This document shows positions 2,945-38,457 of a stretch of 38,457 nt of DNA, piece after piece. Under the pieces are notes generated by a model. That model had not been told where the DNA came from. It saw only the letters and a list, made by a program, of their open reading frames with translations, and did not search any database. Position 1 is the first letter of the stretch. Each line of letters begins with the position of its first letter. The translations under genes were made by a program, and so were the position numbers. This DNA is from Chromatiales bacterium USCg_Taylor (lineage in GTDB: Bacteria; Pseudomonadota; Gammaproteobacteria; JACCXJ01): the NCBI GenBank assembly GCA_002007425.1, contig MUGK01000047.1, positions 1 to 38,457 on the forward strand. Direction: 5' to 3'.

Positions 2945-3077
2945 GCAATGAACGTTTCTATGCCAAGATTGATCGCATGTCGGGGCAGCAGCGCGAGACG
3001 AGGCCGCAGGGCCGGCGGCGATTAGACGCTCATTTCACGGGGCAAGCCGTCGCTGGGCAGAGAGAGCTGCCATTGTG
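2920..3077 (+). pseudogene. Possible C-terminal remnant of a REP-associated (RAYT/Y1) transposase
   Basis: An open stretch without its own start reads PLSNERFYAKIDRMSGQQRE followed by TRPQGRRRL, ending at the TGA at 3075-3077. The pattern (L-x-x-x-x-F-x-x-x-I, then an RP-x-GR-rich tail) resembles the C-terminus of IS200-like REP-associated tyrosine transposases. The catalytic HUH and Tyr region is absent. The call rests on recollection of the family pattern over about 30 residues, so it is tentative. The frame overlaps the GTG start of the next gene. Confidence 0.3.
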
Positions 3078-4463
3078 AAAATATCCGAACCTGGCCCTTT
3101 TCGCTCCCTTCAAGAAACCGACCGCCGCTGGGTTCTATTGAGCCATGCCAACCCGGAGGATAACCAAGCAACGATTTGGTTTGCCACGCAGCTCGCGAAT
3201 GAAGGGTACAGCGTCTGGTCAGACGCAATCGGCTTAATAGGTGGGGAAGATTTCTGGGGTGATATTGAGGAAGTGATTCGGTATCGAGCCGCGAAAGTCG
3301 TTTACCTCCTGTCGAGGGCATCAAATGACAAGGACGGCTGCCTGAAGGAGCTACATCTAGCACAGAGCGTGGCTCGCAAAGAGGCCCTCAAAGATTTTGT
3401 CATTCCGCTCAGGATTGGCGATCTATCCCACGCCGACGTGAATATCCGTGTCAGCTCGTTGAACAGCATCGAGTCACGTGCGTGGAATGTTGGTCTGGCA
3501 GATCTGCTTCGCAAGCTTGACGACGACGCCGTACAGCGAGGTTCGGCGAAAGACTTCCGTGCAACGAGCGAGTGGTGGAAATCTCGGTTCGCAACAAGCT
3601 TATCCGTGCGCGAGGAGCCGGAGAATCTCTACTCTAACTGGTTCCGTATTCTGAACAATGAGCTCGTGTTGTATTGGCATGGATTGCGCCGCACCGAGAT
3701 CGGGCCCATTGGCCTACCTCAACATCTACCGTGGCCGGCGCTCGAAAGCTCAGGAGGGATCTGGACCCTAGCGACGGTGGATTCCGTTGCGGCCTGTTTG
3801 CAGAAGCCGTACTACATCGATCGTACCTACAACTTCCTCAAGCGTCGCGGCTTGATGGAACACGAATTATCACAAGACAAGCACTGTTTTGGCTCTCCGA
3901 TTGGTCTCGTAAAAGGCGATGACATCGCCTTTGCTTCTTCGGGTGGGCGTAAGGGCCGCAGGAGCGTCGTCGGATACAAGACGCGTATGAATGCGCACGG
4001 TGAAACGTGGCTTCGGTATTGGCACTACGCAATCCAACCCATACCGGCGTTCCGCCCAGAATTCATCATGATGATCCGTAGCCACGTACTTTTTAGCTCA
4101 GATGGAAAGACTCTCTGGTCAAGCCCAGAGCGGCTACACAAAGCCAGGCGAAATCAATGCAAGAATTGGTGGAACGATGCGTGGCGCGATCGCATGCTGG
4201 CAGTTATGAGCTGGCTTGCGGACGGGAATGCTACGATCTCGATCGACATCGGCGCGTCTGGACCGCTGGTGATCGATCGTCACCCTATGTCGTTCGAGAG
4301 TCCCGTAAGCTACGTACTGCCTCAACGCAAAGAATCTGAGGATGCCGACACCGAAGATGCAACGGATGTGGAGCGTAATGACGAGGGTGACGATGATGGC
4401 TACGGCGACGCCGATGATGAGCACGATGACGAAGAGGATGACGCCGGGGCTGATGAAAAATGA
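3075..4463 (+). CDS. TIR-APAZ protein, effector subunit of a SPARTA system
   Basis: NAD(P)-degrading effector partner of a short prokaryotic Argonaute. Residues about 15-150 form a TIR domain: strand WVLLSHANPED, helix FATQLANEGYSVW, then DFWGDIEEVIR and VVYLLSRAS, with Glu65/66 in IEEVI the likely catalytic region (exact residue not certain). Residues about 165-415 correspond to the APAZ region that docks onto the Argonaute. Residues 420-462 are an extremely acidic tail (25 Asp/Glu of 43). At 462 residues it has the usual length of TIR-APAZ proteins. The start is a GTG at 3075; the frame is open upstream to a stop near 2970 but has no ATG there. Its stop overlaps the Argonaute start as ATGA (4460-4463), a translational-coupling arrangement. 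In characterised SPARTA systems, guide-directed recognition of target nucleic acid triggers oligomerisation and NAD+ depletion. Confidence 0.9.
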   Translation: MKISEPGPFRSLQETDRRWVLLSHANPEDNQATIWFATQLANEGYSVWSDAIGLIGGEDFWGDIEEVIRYRAAKVVYLLSRASNDKDGCLKELHLAQSVARKEALKDFVIPLRIGDLSHADVNIRVSSLNSIESRAWNVGLADLLRKLDDDAVQRGSAKDFRATSEWWKSRFATSLSVREEPENLYSNWFRILNNELVLYWHGLRRTEIGPIGLPQHLPWPALESSGGIWTLATVDSVAACLQKPYYIDRTYNFLKRRGLMEHELSQDKHCFGSPIGLVKGDDIAFASSGGRKGRRSVVGYKTRMNAHGETWLRYWHYAIQPIPAFRPEFIMMIRSHVLFSSDGKTLWSSPERLHKARRNQCKNWWNDAWRDRMLAVMSWLADGNATISIDIGASGPLVIDRHPMSFESPVSYVLPQRKESEDADTEDATDVERNDEGDDDGYGDADDEHDDEEDDAGADEK

Positions 4464-5982
4464 TGCGCACGAGGCTCCAGTATTCGCCTGAGCCAGAACT
4501 CCGGTTTGCCTTCGATCAGACGGCGGAAGATCCTCGAGATGGCATTGCGCTTTTTGGCCCACTTGATGTTGCTCGGCCGTATGGAGTACGTGCCGGCGTC
4601 ATTGGAACCGAACGGGGAATCGAACTCTACCGAAGGTGGGTCACATGGGCCCAGTGCCCCGTGTTTCGCCAGCCGGCTGATCCAAGTCGTCCAGTTTTTC
4701 CAGGATTTTCCGCGGCATTTCGCACGGAATGGGCGCCCGATCCCTGCTGCACTCTGACTCTAACCGATGACGAGCTTGACGAGCGACTGGCAGTTGCCGA
4801 TGCTCATCACCGCGTCTATGGCGTTGTCAGCCTGTATGCCGACCGAATAGTTGCATCGAGACGCGAGGACGAATCGCGACCAGACCTCTGGTTCGTTGTT
4901 GTGCCCGACAGGGTGAAAGTTCACTGCAAGCCCAAGTCGCGCGCACCGCTGGCACGACCGCATCGACCAGTCGGCCCTTCCGGAATGCAGCGCAAGCTCG
5001 CGATTTCCGGCGCAATCAGTCGCTATTCCAAGAGTTGGAAGCAGAAGCCCAGATCTACTTGCACGAAGTAGACTTTCACAACCAACTCAAGGCGCGGCTA
5101 TTGCGCGATCAGGTTGTCACCCAGGGTGTGAAGGAAAAGACACTCGCAAATATCGTGTCTTTGCCCAATGAGGAATTCTCCACGCATGACTTGGCCATGC
5201 AGCCGGATATCGCGTGGCGATTGAGCACGGCCGTGTTCTACAAGTGCGGTGGCAGACCGTGGAAACTTGCGAATGTGCGCCCGGGAGTGTGTTACGTCGG
5301 GGTGGTATTTAAGCAGGATCTCACGCACGCTGATCCGCGTTGGGCTTGCTGCGCAGCGCAGATGTTCCTAGATTCCGGAGATGGCCTGGTGTTCAAGGGA
5401 GCGTTGGGTCCGTGGCACTCACCGGACACAGAACAGTTCCATCTGAGCTACGACGCGGCAAAGGATCTGGTGAGTCGCGTCTTGACGGGCTATCGAAAGA
5501 GCACGGGGTCGGACCCACAGGAAGTCTTCGTGCATGGTCGCACGATGTTCAACTCTGACGAAATCGACGGCTTTAGAGAAGCGGCGGGGAGAGACGTACG
5601 GATAGTCGGCGTTACCATCAAAAAGGACAAGACACTGAAACTCTTTCGTGAGACTGGTACAACTCCCATTCTTCGAGGTTCCTCGCTTGTGGTGGGCTCG
5701 GACACAGCGTATGTCTGGACGAAGGGTTACGTACCGCGACTTCAAAGATATCCCGGATGGGAGGTGCCGAATTGTCTAAAAATCCAAACGCGGGCCAAGG
5801 GGATCGCAATCGAGACAATTGTTGATGACATTCGAATGTTGACAAAGCTCAACTACAACGCATGCAGTTTTGCAGACGGTCTGCCCGTCACGCTGAAGTT
5901 CGCGGATGCGGTGGGTGAAATCCTGACCGCAGCGCCATCCACGGATGATCCTCCGCCTTTGCCGTTTCGGCATTACATCTGA
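4460..5982 (+). pseudogene. Short prokaryotic Argonaute (MID-PIWI) of SPARTA, frameshifted
   Basis: Nucleic-acid-sensing subunit of SPARTA. The first frame (from 4460) carries the N-terminal and MID part: DPRDGIALFGPLD, RAGVIGTERGIELYRRW, and WFVVVPDRV followed by KPKSR. The second frame continues with SLFQELEAEA, VDFHNQLKARLL, the PIWI block EVFVHGRTMF, LRGSS, YVWTKGYVPRL, the near-C-terminal LTKLNYNAC and VGEILTA, and the end PLPFRHYI. Together they give about 506 residues, normal for a short pAgo, which lacks N and PAZ domains and the catalytic DEDX tetrad. The frame changes by -1 (equivalent to loss of one base) somewhere in 4945-5010, where both frames are open. No classic slippery heptamer is seen, so a mutation or an assembly error is more likely than programmed frameshifting. 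Everything outside this spot looks conserved. Confidence 0.9.
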
Positions 5983-6605: not shown

Positions 6606-7966
6606 CTGAGAGATCCCCACGAAATATTGGCGCCAAGCACAATCGTTATGATTGGAGGTTCGGGACTCTGGCGTTACGGAGTGGGATACTTTTCCAAGCG
6701 ATGCATAATTCGGCGGCTGTAAAGTGATCCTGCGCTCGTTCGATGATACGAATGCCGAGAAAGATCACGGATAGAACGTCCCGGTGCCGCACGGTATTGG
6801 CCTGATCGTGACGCATCAGTCCGCGTTCCTTGGCGGTGCTGCCGATGAGCCACAACACCAGCAGCGCGAGGGCCAAGATGAGGAGCAAAATCGCCAGCCG
6901 CTGTGGGTCACGGCTACGATGAAACTCGAGCGCCAGACCAAACCGGGCGCTTTTCATATCGCGGAAGCTCTCTTCGATCTGCATGCGTTGGCGATAGATC
7001 TGTACCACGCTATGGGCGAGCTTGCGGCCAGCCGGTAGATTACTCGCCAAAATCCATGGCTCACGCGCTGCTCGGGCGGCCTTGTTGCTGCGCTGACTGC
7101 GTGAGCGCTTGCCGTAGCGGTTGATTTCATGGCGCCCCTTGGCTTTGCTTTTGTAGATCACCAGTTGGCAGACATGCGCCTGACTACGGGCCAACCGCAC
7201 TTCGCCCAAGACCCGGGGTGTAGCGGTCGCCTGTGGGTGCAGCGAGTTGACCGATATCCAGTCGCTCTCGCTACCGAGCTTGACATAGCGCCGGTCACGC
7301 ACCCGCGACACCCAGCACCATCCCCATGCCTCCACGGCCTGAAACCAGGGCGTCTTGAAGCCGGCGTCGGTCACCAAGATCGGCCGGCATCCGACCGGCA
7401 GCACCGCCTGGAGCCGATGCAGAAACTGCACGTGGGTCTTCGGCTTTACCGCCGTCTTGCGACCGTGCACTTCCTCATACACGGTAAGCGCCCGGCCCTC
7501 GACCGCCAGTGACACGCGTAATACCTGATTGCGCCGCCATTCGTCCAGATCTGACCAATCGACCAGCAGCACCGGTTGTCGCTGCGACCCTACCAGCCGA
7601 TGCGCTAGCACTCCATACATCGCCTCGCGTTCGGATTGCAGATGCGCGTTCGACAACAACCGGTCAGCGCGCTTGATGTTGTGCTTCTCGCGGGCAACAC
7701 CCGCAATAGCGCGGCCCAAGCCGGTTACGGTCATCCGCTGCGATGTCAGACCCGCCCAGACCATCGTCTCTAGCGCCTCTCGACGCACAGCGTGCATCTC
7801 GACGCACGTTTGAATCAGCAATTTGTGCAATACTTCTCGCGCCTGCATGGTGTGACCTCCTGTAAGCTTCGAACACTTCCTTGAGATCATCAGACACCAT
7901 GCAGGTTCCTCATCAATTCAACTTTATCTCGTTGTTTGAAAGACCATTTTCTAGGGGATACCTCAG
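6606..7966 (-). mobile_element. IS4-family insertion sequence, IS10-like (1361 bp)
   Basis: Complete element with imperfect terminal inverted repeats. The left end starts CTGAGAGATCCCC and the right end, reverse-complemented, starts CTGAGGTATCCCC, with GAAA shared two bases further in. CTGAGAGATCCCC is also how IS10 (Tn10) begins. The left end contains a GATC site; the right end does not. A single transposase gene fills it, and a near-perfect 9-bp target duplication flanks it. It sits inside the SPARTA island, splitting a small gene upstream of the DUF2283 relic. Confidence 0.88.
6646..7848 (-). CDS. IS4-family transposase (DDE)
   Basis: Transposase of the surrounding IS. The start at 7848 (MQAREVLHKLL) has GGAGG about eight bases upstream; the frame extends to 7890 but that start is poor. 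The three acidic catalytic positions are visible in context: Asp in LLVDWSDLDEW, Asp in ILVTDAGFKT, and Glu in YRQRMQIEESFRDMK, which is the IS4 signature Y-(2)-R-(3)-E-(6)-K. The length (400 residues) matches IS10-type transposases. No frameshift or stop interrupts it, so it may be active. Confidence 0.93.
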   Translation of the reverse strand: MQAREVLHKLLIQTCVEMHAVRREALETMVWAGLTSQRMTVTGLGRAIAGVAREKHNIKRADRLLSNAHLQSEREAMYGVLAHRLVGSQRQPVLLVDWSDLDEWRRNQVLRVSLAVEGRALTVYEEVHGRKTAVKPKTHVQFLHRLQAVLPVGCRPILVTDAGFKTPWFQAVEAWGWCWVSRVRDRRYVKLGSESDWISVNSLHPQATATPRVLGEVRLARSQAHVCQLVIYKSKAKGRHEINRYGKRSRSQRSNKAARAAREPWILASNLPAGRKLAHSVVQIYRQRMQIEESFRDMKSARFGLALEFHRSRDPQRLAILLLILALALLVLWLIGSTAKERGLMRHDQANTVRHRDVLSVIFLGIRIIERAQDHFTAAELCIAWKSIPLRNARVPNLQS

Positions 7967-25314: not shown

Positions 25315-27916
25315 TCAATGCGCTTCGTCCCAGTTAGCGCCCACGCCAATATCCACCACCAAGGGCGCCGCGAGCTCCGCGGCCCCTTCCATGATGCTCG
25401 CGAGCCTCGCACGCACCTGCTCGACCGCATCCTCCTCGACCTCGAGCACCAGCTCGTCATGGACCTGCATAATCAGCTTAGCGTTGATTTTCTCCTCATG
25501 GAGCCAGCGATCGACTTCGATCATCGCCCGCTTGATGATGTCGGCGGCGGTCCCTTGCATCGGGGCGTTGATGGCCGTGCGTTCCGCGTACTGGCGGCGC
25601 TGGGTATTTCTGGAATTGATCTCCGGTAGATGCAGGCGGCGGTGATAGACCGTCTCGACGTAGCCTTGCCGTCGGGCGCGTACACGGATCTCTTCCATGA
25701 AAGCTTTTACCCCCGGATAGCGGGAAAAATAGCGATCGATATAGTCCTGGGCCGCGCCGCGATCGATCCCGAGCTGGCGGGCCAGCCCGAACGCGGACAT
25801 GCCATAGATGAGGCCGAAATTGATGGCCTTGGCCGCGCGCCGTTGGTCGGCGCCGACCGTTTCGGGCGTGAGCCCGAAGATCTCCGCCGCGGTGGCGCGA
25901 TGAACATCCTGTCCGGTCGCAAAGGCTTGCCGCAGCAACGGATCACCCGAAAGATGAGCCATGATCCGGAGCTCGATTTGTGAGTAGTCGGCCGCCACCA
26001 AGCGCTGGCCGGGCGGCGCCACGAATGCCCGCCGGATGCGTCGCCCCTCCTCGGTGCGCACCGGTATGTTTTGGAGATTCGGATCCGAGGATGACAGGCG
26101 TCCGGTCGCGGCCACGGCCTGATGGTAGCTCGTATGCACCCGTCCGGTGCGCGCATTGATCTGCTGGGGAAGCTTGTCCGTGTAAGTTGATTTCAGTTTC
26201 GCGAGGCCACGATATTCGAGTATCAATCGCGGTAAGGGATACTCGGCCGCGAGGTCCTGGAGCACCGGCTCGGCGGTGGAGGGCTGCCCCGTGGGAGTCT
26301 TGGCCCTAACAGGTAAACCGAGCTTGTGGTACAAAATTTCCTGGATCTGCTTGGGCGAATCGAGATTGAAGCGCTCACCCGCGAGCGCATGCGCCTCGGC
26401 TTCGACTTCCAACAACCGCCCGCCCAAGGCCCGGCTTTGCTCGTCCAACATTTCCGCATCGATTTGAACACCGTTGCGTTCCATGCGCGACAAGACCGGG
26501 ACCAGCGGCACTTCCATCTCTTCGTAGAGCCGTCGCAACCCGGACTCTTCGGCGAGGCGCGGCCAGAACGCTTGGTGCAACCGCAAACACACCTCCGCAT
26601 CTTCCGCGGAATAGGTCGCGGCTCGATCGACGGGCACCTGGTTGAAGCTGAGCTGGTGAGATCCCTTACCCGCCACGTCCTCAAACAGAATCGTGCGCAC
26701 CCCCAGGTACTTGAGTGCCAGGGAATCCAGATCGTGGCGGGTGGCGGTACTATCGAGAACATAGGACTCCAGCATCGAGTCACAGCGGATCCCACGCAAC
26801 TCCACGCCGTGGTTCGCCAATACGCTCATATCGTACTTAAGATTGTGGCCGAGCTTGAGCGACCGGTACATACGCCGCTTCCCCGGCTTTTAGGGAAAAC
26901 GAGACGCCCACGAGCCCCGCCTGCATGTAGTCCAAACTAGTCGTCTCGGTATCAAAGGCGATAAGCTCGGCATGCCTCAGCCGCTCTATCCATCGATCGA
27001 GCTGTCCACGATCCAGGATCGTTTCATAGCCGGCGGCTTCGACCGGCGGGTCGGGCCGAGGCGCCTCTTCCAGAAGATCGTTCAACCAGGTCTTGAACTC
27101 AAGCTGGGTGAAAAGCGCTTTCAGCGTCTCATTGTCTTGGGGCCCCGGCTTAAGGTCTCTCGGTGTGGCATCAAGGGGGACCGCGCAGGCGATCGTGACC
27201 AGCTTTTTGGAAAGGGCAAGCTGCTGCATGCTCGCGCGCAGGTTATCCCCCAATGTCCCTTTGATGTCGCCGGCATGGGCGAGCAGATTATCGAGACCCC
27301 GGTACTGCTTAAGCCATGCCACGGCGGTTTTGGGTCCGACCTTCGGCACCCCGGGGACATTGTCGACCTTATCCCCGATCAAGCTTAAATAATCCACGAT
27401 GAGCGCGGGCGGGACCCCGAATTTGCGCTCGACGCCTTGCGCATCCATGACACTATTGTCCATCGTGTTCACCAGGGTCACCGCCCCGCTGACGACTTGC
27501 GCGAAGTCCTTATCACCGGTTGCGATGAGCGTGCGAAGACCGGCCTCAGCTGCTTGGATCGCCAGCGTTCCGATGACATCGTCGGCCTCGACGCCCTCGA
27601 TCACCAGCATCGGGACACCCATGGCGCGGACGACCGCGCGCAGGGGCTCGAGCTGAACCCGCAACTCCTCCGGCATAGGGGGCCGGTGCGCCTTGTAAGC
27701 GGGATACATTTCATCGCGAAAGGTCTTGCCCTTGGCATCGAATACCACCGCCAGGTAGTTCGGTGTATAGTCTTTCAGCAACCGGCGCAGCATGGCGATA
27801 AACCCGTGAATGGCTCCCGTGGGTTCTCCGCGCGAGGTGCTCAATGGAGGCAGGGCGTGAAACGCGCGATAAAAGTAAGAGGAACCGTCGACCAGAACCA
27901 GGAGATCTTCCGCCAT
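25315..27916 (-). pseudogene. polA: DNA polymerase I with an out-of-frame internal deletion
   Basis: Repair and Okazaki-fragment polymerase. The start at 27916 (MAEDLLVLVDGSSYFYRAFH) opens the 5'-nuclease domain (VIEGVEADDVIGTLA, ATGDKDFAQVV). The proofreading domain follows (LIAFDTETTSLDYMQAGLVGV). After AAYVPVA (about 26865) the frame breaks and homology resumes in another frame at [18 protein letters not shown], which runs intact through the polymerase motifs [32 protein letters not shown] and [14 protein letters not shown] to the stop at 25315. About 29 residues of the family sequence between these two blocks are missing and the frame changes. The first frame stops at 26837. The flanking domains show no other damage, so an assembly deletion is a real alternative. 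Both halves could in principle still be translated separately. Confidence 0.92.
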
Positions 27917-27952
27917 GGTGTCGTTGCTCGCAATGTGTGCTGATGTTCCATT

Positions 27953-28675
27953 ATGAATAAGAACACTAAAGCCAGCCACCCGGCGCTCGCGCCCGTCAAT
28001 GATTCGGCGCTCGTGCGGGAATCATGGAAGGTGTTCCAAATCATGGCGGAGTTCGTCGAGGGATTTGAGCGCCTGGCCGCCATCCGGCCCGCGGTCAGCA
28101 TCTTTGGGTCCGCCCGTTTCGGCGCCGAGCATCCCTATTACAAGCTGGCCGAAGAGATCGGGTATAGCGTATCGGACGCGGGTTTCTCGGTAGTCACCGG
28201 AGGGGGACCGGGGATCATGGAGGCCGCGAACAAGGGCGCCTATTCGGGTCGCTCACCGAGCATCGGGCTCAACATGCAACTACGGGAAGAGCGCGGTAAC
28301 GCCTTCCAAAATATCAGGCTGAATTTTCGTCATTTCTTTCCCCGCAAGGTGATGTTCGTCAAATACGCTTCAGCCTATGTCGTGCTGCCGGGCGGGTTCG
28401 GCACCCTGGATGAGCTGGCCGAGATCTTGACACTGGTCCAAACCGGCAAGACGCGGAAGATCCCGATCATCCTGGTCGGAAGCGACTTTTGGCGTGGTTT
28501 GATCGAGTGGTTCAAGAATACCTTGGTCGGCTAAGCCACTATTGACGCTACGGATATTGACCTATTTGAGGTAGTAGACCATCCGCGGGAGGTGGTCGAT
28601 GCGATCTTCCGGCATTATGAACATCGCGAGTTTGCGCTCTCGGCGGAAGAGCAAGAAATGCACATGCACTTATAA
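27953..28675 (+). pseudogene. LOG-family protein (TIGR00730-like) with an in-frame stop
   Basis: Cytokinin-riboside phosphoribohydrolase-type (LOG) Rossmann protein. Seen: VSIFGSARFGAEHPYY, VVTGGGPGIMEAANKGA, then the LOG signature PGGFGTLDELAE. At 28532-28534 a TAA follows WFKNTLVG. The same frame continues without interruption for 46 more codons (ATIDATDIDLFEVVDHPREV, EEQEMHMHL) to TAA at 28673-28675. Those 46 codons are the normal C-terminus, so a single base change (most simply GAA to TAA) is the cause. The truncated 193-residue product still holds the whole active site and may work. It is divergent from polA with 36 bp between the starts. Confidence 0.85.
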
Positions 28676-33490: not shown

Positions 33491-34675
33491 TCATACGCTT
33501 TGAGACACACCTCGAAACGTGTCATAAAGCAGGCGATGCGTTATCGCTTCCCAAGAATAATTGCTTGATTGATCCTTGGCGCTTAGTCCTATTTTGGCTC
33601 GTGTCCTGTCGTTATTTACGAGATTTTTCACCTGGGAAACAAATTCTTCCATGCCGTCGGCCAACAACAGAAAATCCAGCTTACGTCTCGTTAATTCGGC
33701 CGTTCGAGTTGCAACCACTGGCAATCCGCTGGCACCATACTCAAATAGCTTCATCGGACTCCTTCCATCATTCGCCGGATGATCGCTTAACGGAAGTAAT
33801 CCTATGTCAGCGTGCTGAAAGTAGGCCGGCAGCTGATCGTATTTCCGCGGTCCTAATAAATGGATGTTGTTACCGGCACCTAACTGCTTGACAACATCGT
33901 TTCCGTACGGACCGATTAGAATGACGTTGGCGTGCGGAAGACACTTTGCTGTCGCGCTTACGGCCTTGTATCCGAACCGTCCATCCAGCGCACCGGCATA
34001 AACGAGTCTGGGAGAGGGTATCTCGGCATATTCAGGAGGCGCCATAGCAGGCTTTGAAAAAAACAGGTAGTCCACGCCGTTTTCCAACATTGTAGCAGGT
34101 TTGTCCGGCGCCAAACTTCGTAATCTGTTGAAAACCGGCTGCGACGTTCCAATAAGAAAGTCCGCTCGATTTGCCATCTCTTTCTCGGTCGTTTCATTAC
34201 GTAGATCACCAAGCATTTCACTGTATAGGTCAGTCGCTCTATAGACCGTTATCTTGGGGTTAACGATCTTTTCTAAACCAACGAAAATGGGCTGATCAAC
34301 TAGAAGGAGATCGACAGCAGTAAATTTATATCGCCGAAGAATTTGCCGGATAGGTGGAAGCGTGAGGAGACACGGACCGCACTGCGTGGAAAGTCGATAG
34401 GCAATCCTCTTGGGAATTAAGCCCAGTGGTACATAATCGATCACCCCATCGTGATACGCTCTCCCACCATGCCACCAAGTCTCAAAGCGACCTTTGGTTT
34501 CGGCATTAGACCAACCGACTAGATGAAATGGCGTCACGGGAGTACTTAGGTGCAACACGCGGTGACCTTGGTTCGCTAAGCATCGTGCGAGATGATGGGA
34601 ACCCACCACAAATGTCCCGCCCATGAAGGTATGGCTAGCGAAAACAATCGTTAGCTTTTTGAAACCGATTGTCAT
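33491..34675 (-). CDS. Glycosyltransferase, GT-B fold (GumK/GT4-like)
   Basis: 394 residues. N-terminal domain: LTIVFASHTFMGGTFVVGSHHLAR. C-terminal domain: RLVYAGALDGRFGYKAV, VILIGPYGND, DIGLLPLSDHP and SPMKLFEYGASGLPVVAT, the acidic nucleotide-sugar loop region. KITVYRATDLYSEM with a following LENGVDY resembles GumK-like glucuronosyltransferases and relatives. Donor and acceptor sugars cannot be predicted. 80 bp downstream of the BY-kinase gene on the same strand, so most likely cotranscribed in an exopolysaccharide operon. Confidence 0.85.
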   Translation of the reverse strand: MTIGFKKLTIVFASHTFMGGTFVVGSHHLARCLANQGHRVLHLSTPVTPFHLVGWSNAETKGRFETWWHGGRAYHDGVIDYVPLGLIPKRIAYRLSTQCGPCLLTLPPIRQILRRYKFTAVDLLLVDQPIFVGLEKIVNPKITVYRATDLYSEMLGDLRNETTEKEMANRADFLIGTSQPVFNRLRSLAPDKPATMLENGVDYLFFSKPAMAPPEYAEIPSPRLVYAGALDGRFGYKAVSATAKCLPHANVILIGPYGNDVVKQLGAGNNIHLLGPRKYDQLPAYFQHADIGLLPLSDHPANDGRSPMKLFEYGASGLPVVATRTAELTRRKLDFLLLADGMEEFVSQVKNLVNNDRTRAKIGLSAKDQSSNYSWEAITHRLLYDTFRGVSQSV

Positions 34676-34755: not shown

Positions 34756-37700
34756 TCACGATAGTTGGGTATGCTTAGGGAGCTTCATATAGTATTTATT
34801 TAGGCTCGTATTATAGGCAGCTGCGTCCGGGAACCTTGAAGCCGCGTGGATTTTTGAATCGACCATCGACAACACAACTCCATTAACGCGGCCTCCGGCG
34901 CTGGCGATCATCTTTATTCCATACTTAACGATTTCTCGGCGTGTCGAGGCCCATTTCGCGATGTACACGGTGGTATCAACTTTTGTTGCAAGAACGCGTG
35001 AATCCGTGACGGCCATCACCGGCGGCGAATCTAGGATTACTAAATCGAATCTGTTTGCCAACTGGTCGAGTAGCACGTCCAACCGCTCGGAATTGATATA
35101 GTAATTCGGGTTCGTGACAGGGCGTCCGGCGCATATCACACGCGCGCCAGATGCTTCGTCTGTTCGGATTGCGTCGTCAAGAGATACCTCGTCGTCCAAG
35201 ATCTCGATAAGGCCCGGTTCGCGTTTGATGCCTAAGGTGCTGTGAATTCTCGGAGTTCTAAGATCGGCGTCCACAATAAGTACCTGTTGCCCAGTGAGGG
35301 CCCAAAGTCTCGCTAAGCACAAAGCTATCGTTGTCTTACCTTCCAGTGGCAACGACGAAGCGATAAGAACGGTTCTTGGCGGCGCGCCCACCGTACTGAA
35401 ACGAATACTCGTGTAAAGCGCGTGGAACGACTCGGTGATTGCCGATCGGGGCTGATTGAGAATATATGATTCTAGTTTTTTTCCAATACTGCCAAGTCCA
35501 CCGAACTTGGGGATCGAACCAAGACCTGGAAATCCGGTGGCACGTTCAATCTGTTCGCTACTCCGAAAGCCTGGGTCCAACTCCTCGATGACGTATATAA
35601 CAGTGAACGCGATAAACAGCGAAACGACGAAGGCCAGAGCAAGGATTATTTTTTTTCTCGGATAAGTCGGTTTGTTGGGCACATCTGCATAAGAGATGAC
35701 ATGCGCATCAGCCTGCCGTGCCCCAAGATATTCTTGCGAATTCGATTCCTTTGTGCGCGTCAAAAAGGTCGCTAAGAGCACCTTATTCGCATCGGCTTCC
35801 CCTTGCAATGCTCGTAATTGAACATCGCTTTCGTTGGACTTACCCACCTGCTTCTCAAGCTCTCTTAGTCGTGACTGAAACGCATATTCGCGCGCGCTGG
35901 CAATATCAGCCTCGTGCTGCAACCCTCTAGAAATCTTACCGATTTCCGCGTTTATCTTGGTTTGTAAATCGCGCTTTTCAGCTTGTAGCTGCAGCATGGT
36001 GGGATGTTTTTCCCCGAGATCCTCGGAAAGCTCGGCAGACTTGCGCACTAGCTCTGCTTCTTGTCCTCTGAGCCCCTGGATCAAACCAGATCCGAGTACT
36101 TCTGAAATAGAATCGGCGCTACCGTCCGCTGCAGTTGACCCTCGTCTTTGGTCTCTGAGGCGGGCCTGCGCCGCCGCTCTCTCCGCTCGTGCCTGGACTA
36201 ACTGTGTGTTTAATTCAGAGATCTCCTGCGCCACCAAGGTCCCGTCCCGGCCTTGGATTAAACCGGACTCCCGGCGGTACTTTTCGACTGCCTTCTCGGA
36301 GTCCTCAACTTGCTTACGTACTGCGGCGATGCGCTCGTCCAGCCATTCGGTCGTTTGTCGGGCCGCCCCGAGCTTGTTTTCGATCCGCGCCCCAATATAA
36401 AGGTCGGCAACAACGTTGGCTATATTGGAAGCCTTTTCGGCGCCCTCTGACGCAAATGCCACAGTGATTACCCGCGATCGCCCCTTCGGAGCGACGCTAA
36501 GTTGTCCTAGAAAGGTATCCACGACCGCTGCTCGCTCACGCGCTTGACGCTGCGCATCGGACTCCGCCCCTTCTTCCGTAGAGCCAAACATTTCTGTTAC
36601 CGTTTGCTTCAGTTGCTCGATAACGGCGGCGAACTCTGTTTTCGGTTGCAATTCGGCGTTAAATTCTGGATCTTGCTCTAGTTTCAGCCGATCCACCACT
36701 TTGCCTACCATGCTACGTCCGAGAAGGACTTCAATTTCGCTGGCAATAGTCTCGGAATCCATAGGCAGATTCGGCATCACTTCCGGTAGCCCGATGTTCA
36801 CGCGTTCCTGGCCGTCAACCATGATCGATGCTTCAGCCTCGTATCGTGGAGTCAACATGAATAAAACCACGGTCGTTAAGGCCAATAATGTACCTACGAC
36901 ACCCATCAGTATCCATTTTCGCTGCAATAGCGTGGAGAAAAAGTCTGCTAACGGCATTGACGAGCCTGCGCTAACTAGTGGCTCACCAGATATCGCTTCA
37001 TGGGGCATCATCAAGGGCCGCCCGGTGTTTTTCACTAATGATGATCCGGGATCGTTTACGGTAGTGATACTGCTCATGTCTTTAGCTTCGCGCCGGCGCT
37101 TCACGTGTAGCTCGCCGCTCTTGACCCGCTGGCGGCGCCAGCCCGAAATTTTTGCAGTGGAAATGCCTTCCCGATCGAAGATCTCCAAGATTTTAGTAAC
37201 GTTATTGCAACGCCCTACCTGCTTAAGAATCCGGCGTTCACGATCGGCGTCGAAATAGCGTAGCTCGTGTTCCCCCTCCGGCGCGCTATCGTCTTTCGGG
37301 AAATCTTCTATTGAGTCTCCAATGGCTTGGAGCAGGGAATGCAGTTCGTTAGCCTCTGGTCTTACAGCTTGGCGCCGGATACGCTCTATTGTTTCGCCAA
37401 GAGAGCGGAGTAGGGAACGAGATGCCATAGCCACGGGCGCATTGTCCGGTTGCGGCGTATGCTCTATTGATTCGGTCACGAAGGCATCCGTGATCTCATG
37501 CATAAACGCATCTATGATCGAACTCTTTGAACCAAGCTCTTTAGCTCTGCCATGCCGGCGCCGCCAGCGCCCGACTTGTACAGGTAAAACACCTTCTTTA
37601 TCCAGTATTTCCACGATCTGGCTCGCATTCGTGCAGCCCTCAATCTCCACCAGGACACGGTGTTCGTTATTCAGGTTGGAAGAGGGCAGTTCGTGTTCGT

Positions 37701-37935
37701 CGGGGTCTTTATTCTCTGGAGTGCCATCCTCTTGCGGAAAATCTTCGATTGATTCTGTAAGAGATCGGCACAGGGAACGAAGCTCCTCAGCCTCACGTGT
37801 GTTATCGCCCTGCGGGATCCGTGCTATTGATTTGATAACGGCTCGGAGTAGGGAACGGTGTTCCTTTGCCTTTGGCATGTCATCTTCCTGCAAACTCTGT
37901 CCTGTTGATTTCGTCATAACTGCCTCTATTCTCAA
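34756..37935 (-). CDS. Polysaccharide co-polymerase / BY-family tyrosine kinase (Wzc-like) with a duplicated HTH-repeat N-terminus
   Basis: Controls chain length and export of an exopolysaccharide. From about residue 328 it is a standard Wzc protein: Wzz domain (PLADFFSTLLQRKW), helix 1 (342-361), long coiled coils (QTTEWLDERIAAVRKQVED), helix 2 (ILALAFVVSLFIAFTVIYVI), then the kinase with Walker A SSLPLEGKTT (Lys867), Walker A' LIVDADLRTP (Asp889, Asp891) and Walker B VILDSPP (Asp969). Only three tyrosines (1041, 1048, 1049) form the C-terminal cluster. Residues 1-327 are extra. They form two units, each of two or three short repeats (RSLLRA-x-x-x-SI-x-x-x-PQ-x-D type) followed by a helix-turn-helix-like block (90-137 and 230-283) ending GRWRRRHGR or SGWRRQRVKSGEL, like the N-terminal HTH of IS3-type transposases. 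The start at 37935 is an ATG; a later start near 287 (MSSITTV) would give a normal-sized kinase. Confidence 0.9.
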   Translation of the reverse strand: MRIEAVMTKSTGQSLQEDDMPKAKEHRSLLRAVIKSIARIPQGDNTREAEELRSLCRSLTESIEDFPQEDGTPENKDPDEHELPSSNLNNEHRVLVEIEGCTNASQIVEILDKEGVLPVQVGRWRRRHGRAKELGSKSSIIDAFMHEITDAFVTESIEHTPQPDNAPVAMASRSLLRSLGETIERIRRQAVRPEANELHSLLQAIGDSIEDFPKDDSAPEGEHELRYFDADRERRILKQVGRCNNVTKILEIFDREGISTAKISGWRRQRVKSGELHVKRRREAKDMSSITTVNDPGSSLVKNTGRPLMMPHEAISGEPLVSAGSSMPLADFFSTLLQRKWILMGVVGTLLALTTVVLFMLTPRYEAEASIMVDGQERVNIGLPEVMPNLPMDSETIASEIEVLLGRSMVGKVVDRLKLEQDPEFNAELQPKTEFAAVIEQLKQTVTEMFGSTEEGAESDAQRQARERAAVVDTFLGQLSVAPKGRSRVITVAFASEGAEKASNIANVVADLYIGARIENKLGAARQTTEWLDERIAAVRKQVEDSEKAVEKYRRESGLIQGRDGTLVAQEISELNTQLVQARAERAAAQARLRDQRRGSTAADGSADSISEVLGSGLIQGLRGQEAELVRKSAELSEDLGEKHPTMLQLQAEKRDLQTKINAEIGKISRGLQHEADIASAREYAFQSRLRELEKQVGKSNESDVQLRALQGEADANKVLLATFLTRTKESNSQEYLGARQADAHVISYADVPNKPTYPRKKIILALAFVVSLFIAFTVIYVIEELDPGFRSSEQIERATGFPGLGSIPKFGGLGSIGKKLESYILNQPRSAITESFHALYTSIRFSTVGAPPRTVLIASSLPLEGKTTIALCLARLWALTGQQVLIVDADLRTPRIHSTLGIKREPGLIEILDDEVSLDDAIRTDEASGARVICAGRPVTNPNYYINSERLDVLLDQLANRFDLVILDSPPVMAVTDSRVLATKVDTTVYIAKWASTRREIVKYGIKMIASAGGRVNGVVLSMVDSKIHAASRFPDAAAYNTSLNKYYMKLPKHTQLS
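37087..37248 (-). other. Transposase-like HTH module 2 within the BY-kinase
   Basis: Residues 230-283 of the kinase: RERRILKQVGRCNNVTKILE followed by DREGISTAKISGWRRQR and KSGEL. The order (helix, C-x-x-x-x-x-I-x-x-x-L/F-x-REG, S/A-x-I-x-x-WRRQR, x-GEL) is that of the N-terminal HTH of IS3-family transposase subunits. Paralogous to module 1. Confidence 0.6.
37525..37668 (-). other. Transposase-like HTH module 1 within the BY-kinase
   Basis: Residues 90-137: EHRVLVEIEGCTNASQIVEI followed by DKEGVLPVQVGRWRRRHGR and AKELG. Aligns with module 2 without gaps over about 45 residues (E/R-R-x-L-x-x-x-x-x-C-x-N, DxEG, WRRxR). More diverged from the transposase pattern than module 2. Confidence 0.55.
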
Positions 37936-38457
37936 ACTTTAGTGATAGCTTTTTCGAGTGTCGCTAAATTGACAAAGACCAAGAATGACCTACTCCAATG
38001 CTATCCGGCTGCTACTATAACCAATTCAATCTGAGGGCCTTGCTTCTTTGGCCATCATCAATTACCTCTAGCGCGTACCCGGATTGAACGCCATCGTAAT
38101 ACCCTAAGTCTACGATTCATATGATTCGATCCGTTTGGGGACGCCACAACGAATGGCAAGGGAAAAGACTGCAGACTGCTGTGCGGGTGCGTTTGTACCT
38201 TCCATGTTCTTACCATGTCCATGCGCGGCGCTGACGGCCGTTTCTCAATAATGCGGAGCGAAATAATAAACCCTCTTGCCCGCGTTCCAAGGACAGCAGA
38301 TGCACTATCCCAGGCACTAACCATACTAGAGCCTGATCGGGTTCAAATGTCAATAGTGGACAGTATTTTCTAATCTTAAAATGAGCCTGAAAAGGGTAAT
38401 AGAGTCCCCCTTAGAGAGAAGGACTCCTGGACCTCAGGGGATGCCTGGGGGCGTTGT
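37936..38457. other. Upstream region of the polysaccharide operon
   Basis: About 520 bp of AT-richer sequence with no convincing gene; a small minus-strand frame at 38058-38324 lacks any recognisable motif. The promoter of the kinase operon should lie here, but no clear -35/-10 pair, operator or riboswitch could be fixed by eye. Confidence 0.4.

Follow-up and report, generated by a model that had tools for sequence, protein, structure and literature searches.

The 38,457-nucleotide stretch of DNA analysed here (the window), from Chromatiales bacterium USCg_Taylor, encodes what its sequence identifies as a genuine Wzc-type tyrosine kinase carrying a captured pair of transposase helix-turn-helix (HTH) domains. 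The kinase class is already known, and the HTH capture appears to be new. An earlier note on this DNA knew of no described protein with such an architecture. In a search of the open-access literature (subscription papers lay outside its scope), no BY-kinase or PCP carrying a domain of this kind was found described, but versions of the fusion are carried by three other genomes.

The kinase and its extended N-terminus

By its sequence, the window gene encodes a Wzc-type polysaccharide co-polymerase whose tyrosine-autokinase domain is intact. The features are given below; residues of the protein are counted from TTG 37935, and ATG 37917 is residue 7.

34756..37917 (-): complete HTH-fused gene for a Wzc-type co-polymerase and tyrosine autokinase; 1053 aa when read from ATG 37917 (open frame; Pfam Wzz and AAA_31, with GNVR just under cut-off; NCBIfam eps_transp_fam and tyrosine autokinase; start choice)
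37923..37927 (-): Shine-Dalgarno sequence AGAGG ahead of ATG 37917 (sequence)
37522..37878 (-): N-terminal unit 1, two helical repeats of about 25 residues followed by HTH1 (unit self-alignment)
37534..37677 (-): HTH1, IS3-OrfA-like, diverged (OrfA profile; placed with HTH profile A3)
37093..37437 (-): N-terminal unit 2, with HTH2 behind a pair of helical repeats (unit self-alignment; AlphaFold helices)
37108..37260 (-): HTH2, IS3-OrfA-like, basic (OrfA profile; AlphaFold; tblastn; charge)
36847..36918 (-): first membrane helix (hydropathy)
36688..36951 (-): Wzz (chain-length determinant) domain (Pfam PF02706, E 5e-10)
35575..35655 (-): second membrane helix (hydropathy)
34846..35433 (-): BY-kinase P-loop domain (NCBIfam TIGR01007, E 2.5e-34; motifs from the translation)
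34759..34842 (-): C-terminal tail with a tyrosine cluster (translation)

Pfam places Wzz at residues 329-416 and AAA_31 (the ParA/BY-kinase P-loop) at 866-983, while the GNVR segment ahead of the second membrane helix (PF13807) reaches 27.4 bits against a cut-off of 27.7 (E 3e-6). The protein also matches the NCBIfam eps_transp_fam and polysaccharide tyrosine autokinase models, with TIGR01007 above cut-off, and two hydropathy maxima, near residues 340 and 761, mark the membrane helices on either side of Wzz. The Walker A, A' and B motifs read EGKT, VDADLR and LDSPP, and the tail, AYNTSLNKYYMK, holds three tyrosines, whereas E. coli Wzc has more. At the EX2RX2R oligomerisation motif the kinase sequence is degenerate (ESFHALYTSIRF, ESFHALY), as it is in two relatives described below (ESIRSIY in L014, ESIRGLQ in L013), and the kinase is 34-38% identical to its closest homologues. 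With Wzc/ExoP-type PCP-2a BY-kinases (TIGR01005, TIGR01007) it shares the Wzz domain, two membrane helices, a coiled periplasmic region, and a P-loop tyrosine kinase bearing Walker motifs and a tyrosine tail. In ordinary members, however, the first membrane helix is preceded by about 20-50 residues, whereas the window protein has around 320 extra residues there, including two HTH units. This extension, taken as the first ~326 residues, is predicted to be cytoplasmic because it precedes the first membrane helix, which begins near residue 340.

Translation of the extension, which the earlier note had assumed, is supported by codon usage, as the kinase frame scores highest of the six frames across this region, and by a ribosome site. 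The start proposed there is not retained: ATG 37917 is the sole in-frame ATG with a clear Shine-Dalgarno sequence and is the best predicted start, rather than TTG 37935. Internal starts at M287, M309 and M310, which have no ribosome site, and at M327, which has a weak one at most, were rejected, since a convincing ribosome site is absent and the extension looks coding. Two antisense open reading frames (36701-37258 and 37322-37942, both +) were set aside as shadows, having lower codon scores and lying opposite the conserved HTH units.

The extension reads as two tandem paralogous units. Residues 20-138 align with residues 167-281 at a score of 212, compared with a maximum of 56 among 500 shuffles, and the similarity spans both the front part (112 vs 44 shuffled) and the HTH part (99 vs 46 shuffled). 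Ahead of each HTH stand two amphipathic helical repeats of about 25 residues, of the RSLLRSLGETIERI type. AlphaFold models HTH2 as three helices (224-235, 240-250 and 254-281; pLDDT 80-89) and HTH1 as three helices at lower confidence, with the majority of the extension at low confidence; Foldseek with both models, which are all-helical and mostly low-confidence, returned no significant match. HTH2 carries a net charge of +8 across residues 228-286, and the whole extension is slightly acidic (net charge -8). The earlier description of a Wzc-like tyrosine kinase with a duplicated N-terminus, cytoplasmic by topology and containing HTH modules, is upheld. Its picture of each unit as a block ending in an HTH is right as to the HTH and is corrected by the helical repeats in front of it.

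Origin of the modules in IS3 OrfA

Curated libraries (Pfam, NCBIfam and PHROGs) and a PDB sequence search gave no significant HTH match in the window modules. PF01527 (HTH_Tnp_1) did not match them, and it remained below threshold for the relatives L024 (15.2 bits) and L013 (19.7 bits). Relatives were therefore sought by profile. Profile A3, built from four kinase HTHs, was run over 369 genomes of the class; besides kinases, it matched mostly short open reading frames of 105-165 aa, together with two longer ones, with E values as low as 1e-10. Over all its searches the OrfA-type frames matched by A3 were mostly 94-165 aa long, reaching E 1e-7 to 1e-11 in several genomes. Many of these short frames directly precede an OrfB-sized frame (340-380 aa). 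In a tblastn search of HTH2 against plasmids, the best matches were IS3 OrfA/HTH proteins (E about 0.01-0.02), and plasmid relatives of the HTH modules are annotated as IS3. A further profile was made from seven OrfA proteins only, a set that was gathered with A3 or HTH2 and is thus partly dependent on them, its members being identified as OrfA by gene order. This OrfA-only profile gave 31.1 bits for HTH2, 16.3 for HTH1, 41.1 for L030 and 36.6 for L031, against 5.7 for the best of 2000 shuffled N-termini. The relationship to IS3 OrfA claimed in the earlier note consequently holds for both HTHs by this profile, while a search of the N-terminus against curated families yielded nothing significant. 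Of the two outcomes that the earlier note named as refuting it, a start near residue 287 or 327 and a lack of HTH-family relatives, neither was observed.

The kinase and OrfA HTH modules all share an invariant Leu, Cys, Glu and Trp, and Trp has been described as the most conserved residue of IS3-family transposases (PMC3219604). HTH2 keeps all invariant positions and a basic WRRQR recognition helix; HTH1 has diverged from OrfA much further, perhaps losing its DNA-contact residues. The window modules thus resemble IS3 OrfA in their predicted three-helix HTH, the invariant L/C/E/W and the WRRQR helix. Unlike OrfA, they have no OrfA-type leucine zipper, no OrfB/DDE domain and no identified IS ends, and they are fused in frame to a membrane kinase.

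When the N-terminus was searched alone, neither GTDB species nor a set of 94 related genomes yielded a close relative, and viral-contig scans returned two OrfA fragments and nothing more. No OrfB or other IS remnant was identified beside the gene, whose single open reading frame runs on into Wzz. Matches to rve in the window genome lie on other contigs only, and A3 detected no further such module across that genome. Taken together, the window HTHs are best described as descendants of IS3 OrfA, apparently captured and then duplicated as a unit of helix repeats plus HTH.

Recurrence, gene neighbourhood and selection

A whole-protein search across the class and a scan of GTDB contigs recovered three further kinase-HTH fusions. 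Two species of one genus in family f66 (L014/L030 and L024/L031) carry one OrfA-like HTH, placed about 30 residues ahead of the Wzz region, with a recognition helix (WWKEF/WWREF) that is less basic than that of OrfA. The third, from Chromatiales bacterium Ww634 (L013/L069), has a different IS3 HTH at its extreme N-terminus, followed by a Pro-rich linker of about 300 residues. This HTH is 75% identical to residues 1-44 of IS3 OrfA from plasmids. The HTH profiles matched none of about 100 other kinases that were retrieved, of which nearly all had short N-termini, and in a 399-genome sample of the phylum no other kinase found there aligned to the HTH region. In the Ww634 kinase gene (L069:6924-10172), the linker between HTH and kinase consists of tandem Pro-rich repeats (PAQAGSPPPAETAPAAPQEDQPDSGGT), and the gene adjoins a LuxR-type two-component pair. 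The window genome also encodes another Wzc-like kinase, an ordinary one that is about 800 aa long and lacks an HTH (L007; G000:C173:5856-7922); it has a counterpart (L006) in the related genus.

In the kinase tree, the window protein is sister to the f66 proteins (SH-aLRT 80), and L069 falls just outside them, within a group supported at 94 that also contains HTH-less kinases. In the HTH tree, the f66 modules lie within the REKLYSNQL subgroup of IS3 OrfA (98/96), and the window modules are placed elsewhere. A single ancestral capture common to the window and f66 is disfavoured though not rejected, as forcing all four of their HTHs into one group carries a cost of 6.8 log units (AU p = 0.056). 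Because the f66 and window HTHs sit apart on the tree, and L069 adds a further case, the data suggest at least two and probably three separate captures, on alignments that are short and with HTH1 on a long branch.

The L030 kinase begins at an ATG 14 bp after the Wza gene, within a Wzx-Wzy-BBP2-Wza-Wzc cluster. At the window locus, the gene downstream of the kinase is consistent with a polysaccharide cluster:

33491..34675 (-): predicted group-1 glycosyltransferase on the same strand as the kinase gene (Pfam Glyco_trans_1_4)

Elsewhere in the window, polA (25315-27979, -) is apparently split into a 5'-3' exonuclease part (26837-27979) and a polymerase part (25315-26871), the break falling within the 3'-5' exonuclease domain. 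As the parts occupy two overlapping frames, a frameshift, due to sequencing error or real, is indicated near 26840-26870. At 3075-4463 (+), a gene for a TIR-domain protein (PF13676; 462 aa) overlaps the next open reading frame (4460-5071) by 4 bases, and the pair could serve defence or signalling. At 6646-7890 (-) lies a DDE_Tnp_1 transposase that has no relation to the IS3-type modules.

Synonymous change has reached saturation between L030 and L031, and pN is 0.19 for the HTH, 0.18 for the Wzc body and 0.49 for the linker behind the HTH (linker identity 17%). The closeness of the HTH value to that of the Wzc body indicates that the HTH has been kept by selection inside the fused protein. These figures bear on the explanation that the extension is neutral and functionless, either a tolerated remnant of an IS insertion or an assembly artefact. 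IS3 OrfA sequences are common, the genomes are MAGs, and the Ww634 HTH is still so close to an IS3 OrfA over 44 residues, all of which would fit this explanation. It is nevertheless very improbable, given the purifying selection at saturated synonymous divergence, the duplication in the window with the invariant residues kept, the unbroken 320-codon frame with its ribosome site, the recurrence of fusions in independent assemblies, and the lack of an IS remnant beside the gene or of another A3-matched module in the genome.

Possible functions of the captured modules

We infer that the HTHs still bind DNA and that the kinase would thereby tether the polysaccharide machine to the nucleoid or to a promoter. 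Stated in full, this likeliest mechanism, a membrane-anchored, oligomerisation-controlled DNA-binding platform joining polysaccharide assembly to nucleoid or promoter DNA, has in our judgement about an even chance of being correct. Wzc octamers assemble and disassemble with tyrosine phosphorylation, and the N-terminal helix alpha1, which lies beside the membrane ahead of the first membrane helix, shifts together with the tyrosine tail and relays the signal (PMC11986026). With the octamer model taken over from E. coli Wzc, HTHs attached ahead of alpha1 would be gathered sixteen to an octamer, so that the assembled form would bind DNA avidly and the phosphorylated, dissociated form weakly. Such an avidity switch would couple export status to DNA.

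Supporting a DNA tether, the OrfA-only profile matches both window modules and those of the relatives but not the shuffled sequences, and HTH2 is strongly basic and well modelled; DNA binding by IS911 reportedly requires its HTH (Rousseau 2004, cited in PMC3219604). The slow evolution of the HTH in L030/L031 and the place of the L030 kinase in a polysaccharide cluster also count in its favour. Against it stand the divergence of HTH1, the less basic f66 recognition helix, the lack of a significant Foldseek match, the low confidence at which most of the extension is modelled, the slight acidity of the extension and the degenerate EX2RX2R motif. The main rival assigns the modules a protein-protein role: derived from OrfA and no longer binding DNA, they would act in oligomerisation or docking, tuning the Wzc ring or binding a partner protein, for example Wzy, a phosphatase or some regulator. 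The two amphipathic helical repeats per unit, the diverged HTH1, the loss of basic residues from the helix after the turn in L030/L031 and the place of the Wzc N-terminal helix in the phosphorylation relay (PMC11986026) all argue for this role, which we consider rather unlikely, as HTH2 retains its basic WRRQR helix with every invariant position, and the apparent repeated capture of one class of DNA-binding domain is easier to explain by DNA binding.

Alternatively, the modules might recognise specific DNA in the promoter or cluster of their own gene, in which case the kinase would regulate itself from the membrane, comparably to ToxR-type one-component factors. For IS911 and IS2, sequence-specific recognition of IS ends by the OrfA HTH is established (PMC3219604), and an ancestral upstream IS insertion would have brought in the domain together with its binding site. 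Promoter and repeat scans, however, found nothing above chance in the 522 bp between the gene and the contig end, and autoregulation appears distinctly unlikely.

For a DNA tether, the best precedent is the CpsD-ParB-RocS system of Streptococcus pneumoniae, in which a polysaccharide BY-kinase is coupled to chromosome partition; the window protein is compared with it by analogy, from sequence. Phosphorylation of pneumococcal CpsD affects ParB movement (PMC4574921), and CpsD works with RocS, a membrane-bound HTH protein (PMC7022226). There, however, the kinase is divided between CpsC and CpsD, and the MarR-like HTH belongs to a further protein, whereas the window protein carries an unrelated, IS3-type HTH in the same chain. 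Recruitment of mobile genetic elements by host genes has been reviewed (PMC8987985), and nematode F-box genes have captured a Tc1/Mariner HTH (PMC12062965). Such capture resembles the window case in that a transposon DNA-binding domain is taken up by an unrelated host gene; unlike the nematode example, the window case is bacterial, IS3-type and on a membrane polysaccharide kinase.

A wider reading is that Wzc-type kinases have repeatedly and independently taken IS3 HTHs to become phosphorylation-switched membrane DNA tethers controlling nucleoid positioning or transcription, which we regard as a tentative possibility, less likely than not. If true, the window protein would fuse into one what CpsD, ParB and RocS do separately, and polysaccharide export state would directly control nucleoid positioning or transcription. 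The protein represents a natural fusion of a polysaccharide-assembly regulator with transposon DNA-binding domains, apparently made on more than one occasion in one kinase subfamily, and would be a clear bacterial case of an insertion-sequence HTH domesticated as part of a membrane kinase. Should the modules bind DNA, the open idea of crosstalk between the capsule/EPS machine and the chromosome would be brought down to one directly testable protein.
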